Positions 20,301-34,480 of a stretch of DNA of 48,619 bases are shown here, one piece after another (positions within the stretch are counted from its first letter, which is position 1; each line of letters opens with the position of its first letter). A program made the translations under genes and the position numbers. This stretch comes from a bacterium (lineage in GTDB: Bacteria > T1Sed10-126), in contig PWHN01000085.1 in the NCBI GenBank assembly GCA_003554945.1, positions 1 through 48,619 of the forward strand, given 5' to 3'. The notes under the pieces are model-generated. The model was not told the DNA's origin and ran no database searches. It saw only the letters and a program-made list of their open reading frames with translations.

Positions 20301-21944
20301 TTGTCTAAAAAAATATCTCTTCCGATTATTTTTCTCTTCCTTGTGTCAGTTATTTCCTTCCCTTTATACCATTTGAATGCCGCAGACGACGAGGCTGTGC
20401 TCTATTTTTTCTGGGGGGTAGGCTGTCCTTTCTGTGACCAGCAAGAAGAGTTCCTGGAGGAGCTTGAGGCTGAATATCCTGAGCTTAAGATAAAGGATTA
20501 CGAAGTTTACCAGGATCCTGAAGGACGAGAATTTTTTATGGAAATGGCCCGGTTGCACAACCTGGATAGGGAGGCTGTGCCTGCCACTTTTATTGGTGAG
20601 CAGCACTGGGTGGGCTTCCGCGACGCTATGAAGGAGCCGATGGAGGAAGCGGTTGTGGAATGTATAGATTCAGGTTGTCCTGACGCGGCCGAGTTAGATT
20701 CTTCTGCCACACAGGTTGATGCTGAGGAGTTGCGCCCCTACGCAAGCGAGTTTCAAACTATTTCAGATCTGAAAGATTTAATTGAATATCTTGCTGATGG
20801 GCGGCTGGCGTTATTAGGTGAAGCCTCCCACGGGACGGAAGAATACTACCACTGGCGGGCCGAGATAAGTCGCAAGCTGATCGAGGAGCATGATTTTGAT
20901 TTTGTAGTGGTGGAAGGGGATTGGGGTTCTCTCTTCGAAGTTAACAAATACGTCAACCAGAATCCAGGAGCTCTGGCCGACAAAGAGGCGGTGCTCGCGC
21001 AATTGGATCGATGGCCACCCTGGATGTGGGCTAATCCGGTGGTAGAAGAGTTTATTAGCTGGCTGCGCGACTACAACAGTGAAGCCGGGAATGTAGGTTT
21101 CTACGGACTTGATGTATATGGTGCCTGGGATGACGGTGACCGGCTGCTGGAGTTAGTAGAAGGGATGGAACACCAGCAGGCGCTGGCAGAAAAGTTTGAA
21201 TGTTTTGAAGAGTATCGCGACGATGGTCAGGCCTACGCTCAGAACTATCAGCAGTTTAGTCGCTCCTGTGCGGAAGAGATGGAGGGGATTTACCGGTTGG
21301 TTGATGAGCAGATCGCCCCCGAAGTAACGGCCGATAAAGCCCTGCGCCTGCGTCAGAAAGCTTCAGTGTTAAAACAATCCGAGCGACATTACCGGGCGAT
21401 GGCAGCAGCGGAGCTTGACGACTGGAATGAGCGGGTGGCCCACATGGAGTCCACGTTAGACAGGTTGTTGGATTATTACGGTGATGACTCAAAAGGAGTT
21501 GTCTGGGCGCACAATACTCACGTTGGCGACGCTCGAGCAACAGTTATGGCGCAACAGGGACGAGAAAATATCGGACAGTTGACCCGGGTAAATTATGGAG
21601 CGGACGAGATTCGCATACTGGGGCAGGCAGGGTATCAGGGCAGTGTCCGGGCCGGGAGCGCCTGGGGGCAGTCCGGAACGGAAATGGAGCTACCGGCGGC
21701 TCAGGAAAATAGTCACGAAGCTACTTTGAACAAACTGGGGGAACAATTTTATCTTAAATTTGACGATCAATTCCGCCAGACAGGTCTGCTGGAGCAAACT
21801 CGAGGTCATCGTGCGGTTGGTGTGGTTTACAATCCACGGCAGGAACATGGGAACTACGTTCCAACTGTGCTTCCAATCCGTTACGATGCTTTACTCTTCT
21901 TTCGTGCAACAGAGGCACTCAAACCCCACCCGGTTGTGGAATGA
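20301..21944 (+). CDS. exported thioredoxin-fold and erythromycin-esterase-like fusion
   Basis: The 547-residue protein begins with a signal sequence (residues 1-27, core IIFLFLVSVISFPLY, ending NAA). A thioredoxin-like domain follows with the redox motif CPFC at 42-45 and the cis-proline Pro94 (AVPATFIG). From about residue 150 it matches the erythromycin esterase/EreB superfamily. LLGEASHGTEEYYHWR near 171 carries the Glu and His of the active site, VVVEGDWG follows, and VWAHNTHVGDAR near 400 has the paired His residues. Most members of this superfamily are not macrolide esterases and have unknown substrates. The fusion to an exported thioredoxin domain is unusual to my knowledge. The TTG start lies six bases after GAGGG. 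No partner gene is evident. Confidence 0.88.
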   Translation: MSKKISLPIIFLFLVSVISFPLYHLNAADDEAVLYFFWGVGCPFCDQQEEFLEELEAEYPELKIKDYEVYQDPEGREFFMEMARLHNLDREAVPATFIGEQHWVGFRDAMKEPMEEAVVECIDSGCPDAAELDSSATQVDAEELRPYASEFQTISDLKDLIEYLADGRLALLGEASHGTEEYYHWRAEISRKLIEEHDFDFVVVEGDWGSLFEVNKYVNQNPGALADKEAVLAQLDRWPPWMWANPVVEEFISWLRDYNSEAGNVGFYGLDVYGAWDDGDRLLELVEGMEHQQALAEKFECFEEYRDDGQAYAQNYQQFSRSCAEEMEGIYRLVDEQIAPEVTADKALRLRQKASVLKQSERHYRAMAAAELDDWNERVAHMESTLDRLLDYYGDDSKGVVWAHNTHVGDARATVMAQQGRENIGQLTRVNYGADEIRILGQAGYQGSVRAGSAWGQSGTEMELPAAQENSHEATLNKLGEQFYLKFDDQFRQTGLLEQTRGHRAVGVVYNPRQEHGNYVPTVLPIRYDALLFFRATEALKPHPVVE

Positions 21945-21947
21945 GCT

Positions 21948-22331
21948 TCAGTTTTTTTGAGATCGGGGAAAGTGGAGCCGGTAAATTAGTGTGTAGGCGA
22001 GGATATTGCCAATAATCAGCAAAATTCCCAGAATAACTATCTCCCTGTAAACAAATCCATCCACATAAATTAGTGGGTATATGTAGTGAGCGATAAAACC
22101 GCCTTCATAAGTGGAGAGTCCGGCTTGATCAAGAAAATAGTTTTCCAGTGGAGTAAGGGGACAGGACCAGCGAAAAAACCAGATTAGGGTCGCCCAGGTA
22201 AGACAGGGAATGTGGAGGAGGATAAGTTTTGGCCAGCGGATACAGATCAAAGCTCCAAAAACGGAAAATATTATAAAAAATAGGTGGACAAAATAGGTTA
22301 AATTAGCCAAAAAACGAAAGAGAATGGTCAT
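21948..22331 (-). CDS. DUF2784 small membrane protein
   Basis: A 127-residue protein with four hydrophobic segments. The family pattern is clear: FVHLFFIIFSVFGALI, then CPLTPLENYF, a YEGGFIAHYIYPLIY stretch and a final helix ILGILLIIGNILAYTLIY. DUF2784 proteins have no known function. The ATG at 22331 is chosen because upstream sequence in the same frame is palindromic repeat (GCGGGAACGAATAACG). The gene is convergent with the thioredoxin/esterase fusion, with only three bases between the stop codons. Confidence 0.8.
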   Translation of the reverse strand: MTILFRFLANLTYFVHLFFIIFSVFGALICIRWPKLILLHIPCLTWATLIWFFRWSCPLTPLENYFLDQAGLSTYEGGFIAHYIYPLIYVDGFVYREIVILGILLIIGNILAYTLIYRLHFPRSQKN

Positions 22332-22344
22332 ATATTTATCTCGC

Positions 22345-22540
22345 TTTCCAACCGCCCCCCGCCATTGCGGGAACGAATAACGTCCCAAGGAACGTATGAC
22401 GTCCCAGGGCTTGACCCGCGATCTATTTTCCCCCCCTTTGTCTTTCCCCCCTTCAAGGGGGAAAAGGAATGGGGGGTCTGGATCTTCCCCTGGAGCAAGT
22501 CCGGGGACCGCTCGGGATGACGGAGGCAGGTTTTGTAGAG
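22345..22540. repeat. spacer with palindromic repeats before tRNA-Asp
   Basis: The spacer contains CCCCGCCATTGCGGGAACG, two copies of ACGTCCCA, a CCCCCCTTCAAGGGGG palindrome (about 22447-22463) and TCCGGGGACCGCTCGGGATGAC. The block CTTTGTCTTTCCCCCC followed by TTCAAGGGGG recurs with few changes at about 39187-39215. No gene is seen. Confidence 0.65.
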
Positions 22541-31305: not shown

Positions 31306-33738
31306 CTACAGTTTTTGCAGGAGTAAACTAAAACCTGCGAGGGCGATCAGGTAAATAAGAAAAGCGATAGCGGTAACGAAGCTGAAACCAAAGTGAACGG
31401 AGAGCAGGGTGGCCAAACCTGCGCCAACAACCGAGAGGCTGCCGTTAATTCCCCAGGCCCAGGGAATCAAACGCTGATTGTGATCGGCGACGGTCTGAAG
31501 CCCGAGTGGGAAAGGGAAACCGAGCGCAAAAGCAAGCGGTGCGATCATTGTGACGGCGAGAGAAATTTTTGCATAGTCGGGCCAGCCTGCCGCCCAGCTA
31601 AAAATGAGAGGGAAACTAAAGTGATAGCCGAGAGCGAGGAATCCAATCACCGCGACAGCAGTAGCTACAGTTTTAAGGGGGAATGTTCGGCATTTGTGAG
31701 CAAAAAAGCTGCCGGCGCCGGAAAAACAGAGAAACGAGGTCAGGACGACGGCAAGAGAGTAGACAGGATAGGTTAAAAAGAGCATAAGACGCTGAATCAT
31801 AACCATTTCCAGGAGCATGTACCCGACGCCGAGGGAGGCAAAATAGAGGACGACAAACCAGGAGATAGGGCTGGCAAATTTGAAGTCGCCGAAAAACCAG
31901 AGCGGCAGCAGGATGAAAATAGCGGCCGCCAAAAAGGCCTGGATAACAGTGGCTGTCAGTATGAGATAGCCCCACTCCAGATAACGAAGGGAGCGAGTGC
32001 CAAGCTGCTCCCAGATAAGTCTAAAACTATGCCAGCGGAAAAAGTGGTGGAAATAGGGGCGGTCGTCTGAGGCCGGTCGTAGATAAAAGTGGTGGTCCTG
32101 GTAGAATTTTTCGCGTTCGGGAGAGAGAATTTGCTGGACGGCGAGGTAATATTCAGGTTCTTCGAGGAGCACAAAACGGTTGGCCTGTTCGGCTTGCATG
32201 CCGGGGAAGTGAACAAAATCAAACCATCGATCTTCAGCAAACTGTCGAGCTCTTGCAATTTCAGATTCGGTAAAAGGAGATTTGCTTACGACAAGTGTGC
32301 CAGTGTTCCATGAACGCAGAGCAATAATATGGTTTTCTGGTTTCTCAATTCCCTGAGCTTCCAGAGCTTCAACGGCGGTGGCAATTATCTTAATGAAGTC
32401 GCGTGGCGGAGTTCGAAGCCAGCGGGTGAAGCTGAGCAACCCGTCGTCGGCAAGCCGGTCGAGGTAGAGCTGTAAAGATTCGCGGGTATAGAGGTAACTT
32501 TCGGCGAGCGCATTGGTGCCTGCTGCTGCGGCGTTAAAAGCATCAAGGAGAGGAAATTGAATGAGGTCATATTTCTTACGTTTAGACTGAAAGTAGCCGC
32601 GTCCATCTGCAAGAACGTAATGGACGGCCGGGTGGTGATAGAGCTGACCGGAGAATTCGGCGAAATCATCACGCAGGAGTTGATGAACGACGGGGTCAAC
32701 CTCAATTGCAGTCACAGACTCCGGTTCGTGGGCCAGGGTCTGTAGAACGGAGCTGCCGCCGCCGGCGCCAACAACAGCGGCGTCTTTTGCCGTCCGATCG
32801 AGGTGAAACGGCAGGGCTGCGGTGACGTAATCGAGATAAGCCACATTTTGATAGTCACCGTCAAAACGGATAATTGGTGAAGGAGAATTGCCGTCAAAAT
32901 AGAGAACAATTTGTTCGGGGATGTCGCCGTATTTATGATAAGGATAGTTAGAAATCTGTCCGGGGGTTGCACGGATTTGACGCGAGCGGACTGCGGTAAC
33001 CTGGGAAAGAGGACTAAAATTTTGCCCAACAATTTCGGCGTCCGGATTCTGAAGTCCATAATTCAGTGACTTGTAGCTGGAAATAGGGACCTGTTGAAAG
33101 CCGAAAAAGAAGAAAACAAGGCAAAGGGTAAAAATAACAGCAAGCAGTGCAAGTAACTCGCGCCAATTATCTAAAATCAGGAGAAGTCCGAGAGCGGTTA
33201 AAAAGCCGAGTAAGTAAGGGAGGGAAGAGACGGGGAGTTGAAAAAGCAGGAGAGCTGCAGCAAGAGCACCAGCCCCCGAGCCCAGCATATTACTGAAGTA
33301 AATCAAACCGATTTTTTCTTTTTCTTGCATGAAAGAGAGGGTCAGAAAAGCCGAAGCAAAAAAGAAGGGGAGGGAGAGCAGCAAGTAGAGGCCGAAGAGA
33401 TAAATTATTTGTTCCGGTTGAGTAGTTAAGCGAAAAGTTTCAAAAGGAACAAGTCGAGCCCCAAGATAAGTTAAAGGGAATAAAAGAGAAGCCAGGAAGA
33501 GGGAAGATTTCAAGAGAAGCTTAAGCTGTCGCTGAGAAAAATCATCCGGCAGAGCGAGCAGTGCGCCAGCTGCCGCAAAGCCAAGCATGGCAATGCTGAT
33601 TATCATGTGAGCAAAGTGATGCCACTGGGCAATAGAGAAGAGACGAGTAAGGACAATCTGGTAGGCTAGAGCGGCAGAGCTGACCAGAAAAACCGCACCG
33701 AGTTGACGCAAAAAACGGTAAGACCGGTCAGTTTTCAT
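31306..33738 (-). CDS. membrane-embedded spermidine-synthase-like protein
   Basis: An 810-residue protein in three parts. The N-terminal membrane block of about seven helices spans roughly residues 10-215. A Rossmann methyltransferase/aminopropyltransferase domain of the spermine/spermidine synthase family follows; AVVGAGGGSSVLQTL near residue 322 is the nucleotide loop, with AIEVDPVVHQLL and VLADGRGYFQ after it. A C-terminal membrane block of about six helices spans roughly 590-805. Such fused proteins are widespread, but it is not established that they make polyamines. The start overlaps the end of the isoaspartyl methyltransferase gene by 11 bases, so the two are coupled. The cytosolic synthase domain keeps the acidic residue after the second strand (EVDP). 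Confidence 0.88.
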   Translation of the reverse strand: MKTDRSYRFLRQLGAVFLVSSAALAYQIVLTRLFSIAQWHHFAHMIISIAMLGFAAAGALLALPDDFSQRQLKLLLKSSLFLASLLFPLTYLGARLVPFETFRLTTQPEQIIYLFGLYLLLSLPFFFASAFLTLSFMQEKEKIGLIYFSNMLGSGAGALAAALLLFQLPVSSLPYLLGFLTALGLLLILDNWRELLALLAVIFTLCLVFFFFGFQQVPISSYKSLNYGLQNPDAEIVGQNFSPLSQVTAVRSRQIRATPGQISNYPYHKYGDIPEQIVLYFDGNSPSPIIRFDGDYQNVAYLDYVTAALPFHLDRTAKDAAVVGAGGGSSVLQTLAHEPESVTAIEVDPVVHQLLRDDFAEFSGQLYHHPAVHYVLADGRGYFQSKRKKYDLIQFPLLDAFNAAAAGTNALAESYLYTRESLQLYLDRLADDGLLSFTRWLRTPPRDFIKIIATAVEALEAQGIEKPENHIIALRSWNTGTLVVSKSPFTESEIARARQFAEDRWFDFVHFPGMQAEQANRFVLLEEPEYYLAVQQILSPEREKFYQDHHFYLRPASDDRPYFHHFFRWHSFRLIWEQLGTRSLRYLEWGYLILTATVIQAFLAAAIFILLPLWFFGDFKFASPISWFVVLYFASLGVGYMLLEMVMIQRLMLFLTYPVYSLAVVLTSFLCFSGAGSFFAHKCRTFPLKTVATAVAVIGFLALGYHFSFPLIFSWAAGWPDYAKISLAVTMIAPLAFALGFPFPLGLQTVADHNQRLIPWAWGINGSLSVVGAGLATLLSVHFGFSFVTAIAFLIYLIALAGFSLLLQKL

Positions 33739-34480
33739 CGCGGACGAAAGGTACGAAACGGACGGGCATCACGGAACGTTGAGTCAGTCGACCTTCCTCA
33801 TCTTTTTCTACCAGCATGAGACTCTGTGTTTCATAGGGCGGGCCGACGGGGATGACCATGCGGCCGCCATCAGCTAGCTGCTCGATCAGAGGCGGAGCTA
33901 TGTGACTGGCGGCAGCGGTCACGACAATAATGTCAAAGGGGGCGTGTTCCTCCCAGCCGTAGTAGCCGTCGTCATGTTTAACTTTTACGTCATCATACCC
34001 GCAGGCACGCAGTGCTGTTTTTCCCTGGTGTGCGAGTGGTTCAATAATTTCAATAGTGTATACTTCCCGGACAATTTCTGCGAGAACTGCCGCCTGGTAA
34101 CCGGATCCGGTGCCGATTTCAAGAGCTCGGTCATCAGGGCCGGGACGAACGAGCTCGCTCATTAATGCGACTATAAAGGGTTGAGATATTGTTTGACCGT
34201 GGCCTATTGGGAGCGGCCTGTCCAGATAGGCTTGAGCTCTGTAGTTAGGGTGAACAAAAGCGTGTCGATAGACGCTGCGCATAGCATCTATTACCCTGGT
34301 ATCCTCGATTGGCTGTGCTCCCCGCCGTGGAGATATTATATGATTTTCAGCCAGCTTCTCTCGACGTTCTTCAAAATGAGCGGCGTCTTCACATTCCACG
34401 GGATAAGTATCGGCAACAAGAGCAGTGGTAAGGGGAGGAAAGACAAGCAAGACGAAGAGAAATGAAAAAAATTTTACCAA
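33728..34480 (-). CDS. pcm: exported protein-L-isoaspartate O-methyltransferase
   Basis: The enzyme methylates isoaspartyl residues in aged proteins using S-adenosylmethionine. The core has RVIDAMRSVYRHAFVHP, GHGQTISQPFIVALM, ALEIGTGSGYQAAVLAEI (SAM loop), TIEIIEPLA and FDIIVVTAAASHIAPPLIEQL, all typical of Pcm. From the TTG chosen here (preceded by GGGGG) the protein is 250 residues and begins MVKFFSFLFVLLVFPPLTTA, a signal peptide. It would therefore act in the periplasm or be membrane-anchored, unusual for an enzyme that needs cytosolic SAM. The start codon is uncertain; longer readings to 34627 exist. It is the first gene of a two-gene unit with the membrane synthase-like protein. Confidence 0.85.
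   Translation of the reverse strand: MVKFFSFLFVLLVFPPLTTALVADTYPVECEDAAHFEERREKLAENHIISPRRGAQPIEDTRVIDAMRSVYRHAFVHPNYRAQAYLDRPLPIGHGQTISQPFIVALMSELVRPGPDDRALEIGTGSGYQAAVLAEIVREVYTIEIIEPLAHQGKTALRACGYDDVKVKHDDGYYGWEEHAPFDIIVVTAAASHIAPPLIEQLADGGRMVIPVGPPYETQSLMLVEKDEEGRLTQRSVMPVRFVPFVRDEN

Follow-up and report, generated by a model that had tools for sequence, protein, structure and literature searches.

To our knowledge, most members of the erythromycin esterase (Ere) superfamily, PF05139, have no known substrate, and the name "erythromycin esterase" misleads annotation. The residues proposed for catalysis in EreC are E47, H50, E78, R261 and H289, and the minor lobe of this enzyme contributes to its substrate pocket (PMC7979712). 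Another group of Ere-like proteins, to which Rv2030c of Mycobacterium tuberculosis (PMC4410610) belongs, has a protein-L-isoaspartate O-methyltransferase (PCMT) or a phosphoribosyltransferase as partner. The window analyzed here (the whole stretch of 48,619 nucleotides, contig PWHN01000085.1) is contig 58 of a 2.2-Mb metagenome-assembled genome (MAG) of a little-known haloalkaline bacterial lineage, whose phylum is represented in the searched set by just one other genome, designated G001. It encodes an Ere-like protein joined to an exported redox domain:

20301-21944, plus strand: whole gene of the exported glutaredoxin/thioredoxin-fold and PF05139 fusion, 547 amino acids, TTG start, stop included; orthologue in G001
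20301-20387, plus strand: signal peptide, residues 1-29 (MSKKISLPIIFLFLVSVISFPLYHLNA, then AD), by hydropathy; a signal peptide also stands at the aligned G001 N-terminus
20388-20684, plus strand: glutaredoxin/thioredoxin-fold domain, residues 30-128 (PF00462; PDB profile matches to Grx1 and DsbA-like proteins; Foldseek)
20685-20750, plus strand: variable linker, residues 129-150
20751-21920, plus strand: erythromycin-esterase-superfamily (PF05139) hydrolase domain, residues 151-540 (Pfam, alignment, Foldseek)

The gene is a single open frame without internal stops. Its first internal methionine lies deep within the thioredoxin (Trx) domain, so the TTG start is required for the signal peptide. 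The Kyte-Doolittle mean reaches 2.63 in the 15-residue window from residue 5 and at most 1.23 past residue 40; residues 1-29 look like a typical Sec signal, with a plausible cleavage site between LNA and AD. OEP/TolC-like and TamB/AsmA-like genes speak for a diderm envelope. The G001 orthologue uses an ATG start and likewise carries a signal peptide, possibly that of a lipoprotein. The Pfam scan of the fusion found the glutaredoxin and Ere domains only and no N-terminal PCMT or phosphoribosyltransferase domain, on which ground a PCMT-Ere or phosphoribosyltransferase-Ere fusion was rejected.

As both the source genome and G001 are metagenome assemblies, a merging of two genes by a sequencing or assembly error had to be considered. 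However, G001 (contig PWOD01000230.1, MAG CSSed10_354m) belongs to another genus of the same family, and its orthologue aligns with residues 10-541 of the fusion at 58% identity with few gaps. The CSSed10 dataset is from soda-lake sediment of moderate salinity (PMC6146748). That an independently assembled genome of a different genus has the same full-length frame rules out both chance and a sequencing error that joined two frames, and we rejected assembly error as extremely improbable. The preliminary description of this DNA, which placed a signal peptide, a CPFC redox domain and an Ere-superfamily domain with its Glu/His motifs in one frame, thus holds, given the uninterrupted frame, the Pfam matches and the aligned catalytic residues; the sequencing error that it named as a possible refutation was looked for and is contradicted by the G001 protein.

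The redox domain contains the following elements:

20424-20435, plus strand: CPFC redox motif, C42-P-F-C45 (sequence and alignment)
20577-20582, plus strand: V93-P94, the cis-proline position of the Trx fold (alignment)
20661-20678, plus strand: C121-x4-C126 (CxxxxCPD), a second cysteine pair that the orthologue and the two membrane paralogues also retain

Pfam Glutaredoxin (PF00462) matches residues 37-103 (E 6.7e-6, 26.6 bits against a cut-off of 22.9), and a four-sequence profile of the domain retrieves Grx1 structures from the PDB with E 6e-5 and, more weakly, DsbA-like proteins. The AlphaFold model of the domain alone (two sequences) is poor, with pLDDT 52, and its best Foldseek matches are Trx folds. 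A profile match, the CxxC motif and the cis-proline, which together define membership, were all found. The domain had been called a thioredoxin fold; the profile matches and the CPFC motif bear this out, but by sequence it is glutaredoxin-like, and it shares its ancestry with the extracytoplasmic redox domain of the Trx-CcdA-like membrane protein discussed below.

In the hydrolase domain, the following positions stand out:

20820-20831, plus strand: E174-x-x-H177, equivalent to EreC E47/H50, general base and partner (alignment; PMC7979712)
20913-20915, plus strand: E205, equivalent to EreC E78 (alignment; PMC7979712)
21201-21269, plus strand: C301 and C323, invariant cysteine pair in a predicted helical (minor-lobe) segment (conservation; predicted helices)
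21432-21434, plus strand: R378, equivalent to EreC R261 (alignment; PMC7979712)
21510-21521, plus strand: H404-x-x-H407, with H407 equivalent to EreC H289 (alignment; PMC7979712)

Pfam Erythro_esteras covers residues 194-537 with E 1e-84 and 285.7 bits (gathering threshold 26.4), spanning profile positions 1-358 of 358. The full catalytic set of EreC is present, aligning in order to E174, H177, E205, R378 and H407, and H404 is likewise invariant in the Ere-domain alignment. The AlphaFold model of the full fusion (six sequences) is poor (pLDDT 59), and Foldseek confirms the identity of the fold only. The Pfam family and the catalytic residues are shared with EreA/B/C/D and could suggest a secreted macrolide esterase conferring antibiotic resistance. 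However, the NCBIfam EreB, EreD and EreA models give 18.8, 24.9 and 13.4 bits against cut-offs of 750-800, and scores hundreds of bits short make macrolide hydrolysis unlikely; moreover, the fusion had no match among phage records and has no mobile or resistance context, and this Ere branch is widespread in environmental haloalkaliphiles. We therefore rejected the identity of a macrolide-resistance enzyme, which we regard as very unlikely, and the fusion should carry no such annotation without an assay. Of the earlier label "EreB-like", the superfamily assignment stands, while EreB itself was an overstatement.

Each of C301 and C323 is kept in 29 of 33 sequences of the Ere-domain alignment and in all 52 exported relatives. 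The helical segment that carries them presumably corresponds to the minor lobe of EreC. This opens the possibility of a redox-gated hydrolase, in which the Trx domain would reduce a C301-C323 disulfide in the minor lobe and so switch the enzyme with the redox state of the envelope. The invariance of the pair and its predicted position at helix ends of the presumed minor lobe, whose EreC counterpart lines the substrate pocket (PMC7979712), are consistent with such gating. Yet the pair is equally conserved in Trx-free relatives, near cytosolic ones included, so that it is older than the fusion and may have a structural role only; we consider redox gating rather unlikely.

We searched with a profile of the two fusions in a broad set of 386 genomes sampled across families and in a phylum set, 247 genomes from the phylum to which a Balneolales MAG belongs; an exported-Ere profile was run on the 128 genomes of a single Balneolales order, a set that overlaps the phylum set. 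No further Trx-Ere fusion was found in the broad, phylum or order genomes, and the matches to Trx-free relatives begin at about residue 130-150 of the fusion. Among the best matches in plasmid records, the Ere relatives are all Trx-free, and the Trx domain alone had no match there; phage records and viral contigs contained no relative of the fusion. The genome-contig scan relied on exact peptides, and its five matches are no measure of abundance. As no description of a Trx-Ere fusion was found in the open-access literature either, the architecture appears to be undescribed, though both domains are of known kinds and rare examples of the fusion may exist elsewhere. The view that an exported Trx partner is non-standard for an Ere protein agrees with these genome, plasmid and phage searches.

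Export as such is another matter. In the Ere-domain tree, the two fusions (100/100) fall within a 14-member clade (100/99), the other members of which mostly have N-terminal signals, and the nearest group outside this exported clade is cytosolic. Of the 128 genomes of the order to which the Balneolales MAGs belong, 56 have an exported Ere member; one further match (genome G657) is a PCMT-Ere fusion. Among 52 exported-Ere loci, a clear hydrophobic N-terminus is present in 46, while of the remaining six, contig ends truncate at least two, and three are borderline cases; the catalytic residues are invariant in 52 of 52, and a CxxC upstream of the Ere domain was found in none. The signal peptide of the fusion, already named in the preliminary description, is real, but export is ordinary for this subclade.

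Most of the genes that neighbor these 52 exported-Ere loci are particular to a lineage: 16 loci have a secreted protein, about 11 have anti-sigma-factor-type genes and DJ-1, and 7 have a redoxin. An exported DJ-1/PfpI protein adjoins the exported Ere in about 11 Balneolales loci (for example, L013:6324-6950 and L094:3003-3626). In 7 of the 52 loci, the gene for a secreted redoxin precedes the Ere gene on its strand, directly so in four, and a DsbD_N protein stands beside it in all four loci scanned (L090-L093), whose genomes lack an exported PCMT. The redoxin is also present in L138, L158 and L169; in some of these seven loci, gaps or genes separate it from the Ere gene. Given the lineage-specific character of most neighbors, the proximity of a redoxin is weak support for a functional link.

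Both Trx-Ere genomes encode a paralogue (L002 and L009) in which a similar signal and redox domain are joined to a polytopic membrane region. The Trx part of the fusion is closest to the paralogue of the same genome (43% over residues 1-153, signal peptide included), and in the Trx tree the two fusions pair (81/76) near the membrane paralogues. L002:1453-2784, L009:1462-2754, L046, L033, L041 and L004 form a family of exported Trx/Grx proteins with such a polytopic domain. The family has one invariant cysteine in each of two membrane motifs, DGxNPC and ExxCT; these cysteines are as would be expected of a CcdA-like electron carrier and are all that points to such a role. The membrane part gave no convincing match in Pfam, NCBIfam or PDB and no match to DsbD/CcdA profiles, and "CcdA-like" is used here for L002 as a description, not as family membership, the similarity being in the cysteine pattern alone.

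The fusion arose by domain shuffling, and the simplest history is that the signal and Trx part of the membrane-protein gene was duplicated and joined to an Ere gene before the divergence of the two genera. It could then be supposed that the Trx domain is a passenger, which gave the signal peptide and a soluble tether at the time of gene fusion and has no specific redox role, the more so as exported Ere proteins do without Trx elsewhere (in the order genomes and 52 loci described above). Against this, CPFC, the cis-proline and C121/C126 are retained in both genera, and the identity between the two fusions is 57% in the Trx domain, close to the 62% of the hydrolase, versus 27% in the linker. We find a mere passenger quite unlikely.

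As to the physiological context, two features of the window should be considered:

21948-22388, minus strand: DUF2784 membrane protein, convergent with the fusion gene; the sole neighbor that also adjoins the fusion in G001
33728-34480, minus strand: signal-peptide-bearing PCMT encoded 12 kb from the fusion on its contig, a candidate for its functional partner

The rest of the fusion neighborhood differs between the two genera. The window further encodes a protein with a Na+/H+ exchanger domain and a C-terminal universal stress protein domain (PF00999 and PF00582; 23078-24646, plus strand) and an Abhydrolase_9 membrane protein that also has the N-terminal domain usual for such proteins as partner (PF15420 and PF10081; 24743-26431, minus strand). 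The hydrolase might have an exported polysaccharide, lipid or small molecule as its substrate and cleave an ester in it, the Trx domain reducing a disulfide- or thiol-linked part of the same substrate. The closest solved relatives, BcR135 and BcR136, are labeled as proteins of succinoglycan biosynthesis and act as esterases on p-nitrophenyl butyrate; however, no polysaccharide genes adjoin the fusion in either genome, and the succinoglycan label is a mere annotation. This explanation also seems to us rather unlikely.

G001 encodes a counterpart of the exported PCMT, so that both Trx-Ere genomes are covered; in Pseudidiomarina and Salegentibacter, near cytosolic Ere relatives are encoded in PCMT-X-Ere operons, and in rhizobia PCMT and Ere are fused. 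The X protein of these operons is about 380 amino acids long (L011:3779-4924, L014:3796-4950), and the L011 copy matched nothing in Pfam or NCBIfam. With phosphoribosyltransferase also present among the partners of relatives, the statement that Ere-like proteins are fused to methyltransferases or phosphoribosyltransferases is borne out for both kinds. In the 128 order genomes, exported Ere and exported-type PCMT occur together in 37, exported Ere only in 19, PCMT only in 18 and neither in 54 (odds ratio 5.8, Fisher p 5e-6, uncorrected for phylogeny); the odds ratio is 8.1, again uncorrected, after dropping nine genomes without any PCMT. Exported-type PCMTs were called in this set by a profile score of at least 324 bits, all others scoring at most 242, with a profile partly built from the same genomes. 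An exported-type PCMT (at least 300 bits) is encoded by about 65 of the 386 genomes of the broad set, including all three with exported Ere; such PCMTs are thus widespread, although S-adenosylmethionine would be needed outside the cytosol. The exported PCMT gene of the window has an 11-base overlap with a gene for an 810-amino-acid protein with a spermidine-synthase domain (31306-33738, minus strand).

We tentatively suppose that the fusion is a Sec-exported hydrolase of the periplasm, that its redox module receives electrons from the membrane paralogue, and that it acts in envelope protein maintenance. The Ere domain, by analogy with EreC, would activate water for hydrolysis and open an ester, imide or amide bond of an envelope substrate; the Trx-CcdA-like paralogue would pass electrons across the membrane to the attached redox domain, which may keep the hydrolase or its substrate reduced. 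The process served would be the upkeep of damaged envelope proteins, not antibiotic resistance. We know of no activity for the exported Ere branch, and the substrate is a guess. Envelope maintenance is the likeliest function because this Ere branch repeatedly accompanies PCMT and an exported PCMT is encoded nearby. On the other side, exported-type PCMT is common without exported Ere (18 of 72 such genomes in the order, besides its frequency in the broad set); no exported PCMT is seen in 19 of the exported-Ere genomes, though some of these are incomplete MAGs; other Ere relatives pair with phosphoribosyltransferase; a periplasmic PCMT would require S-adenosylmethionine there; and, as to the redox module, a nearby Trx partner is lacking for most exported Ere proteins. 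A bolder version of the maintenance proposal is a new envelope protein-repair pathway, in which exported PCMT would mark or reset isoaspartyl or aspartyl damage and exported Ere would hydrolyze the resulting ester or succinimide, in this lineage with its own thiol-reducing arm fed by the Trx-CcdA-like carrier; we consider it quite unlikely. If the PCMT link is functional, the interest of the fusion would rise sharply. The analysis separates out an exported Ere branch in which the catalytic residues and the cysteine pair are invariant. This branch has a statistical tie to exported PCMT and, within one lineage, a tie to secreted redoxin/DsbD_N; the natural fusion predicts a redox partner, and the role of the branch thereby becomes testable in cultured Balneolales.

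In comparison with the PF05139 superfamily (EreA/B/C/D; BcR135/BcR136, PDB 3B55, 2RAD and 2QGM), the fusion shares the whole domain, the fold and the Glu/His/Glu/Arg/His set, but it scores far under the macrolide-esterase models, is exported, bears a Trx domain and has a conserved cysteine pair. The PCMT- or phosphoribosyltransferase-linked Ere proteins (rhizobial fusions, Deinococcus, Rv2030c) belong to the same wider Ere branch; they are cytosolic, with nucleotide- or S-adenosylmethionine-dependent partners, whereas the fusion is exported and has a redox partner. With the exported Trx-free Ere proteins of Balneolales it shares the 100/99 clade, the signal peptide and the invariant residues, yet it has the redox domain that these lack in all 52 loci. 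As for the exported Trx/Grx-CcdA/DsbD-like paralogue, its N-terminal signal and redox domain are homologous to those of the fusion, including C121/C126; where the paralogue carries a putative membrane electron carrier, the fusion has a soluble hydrolase.
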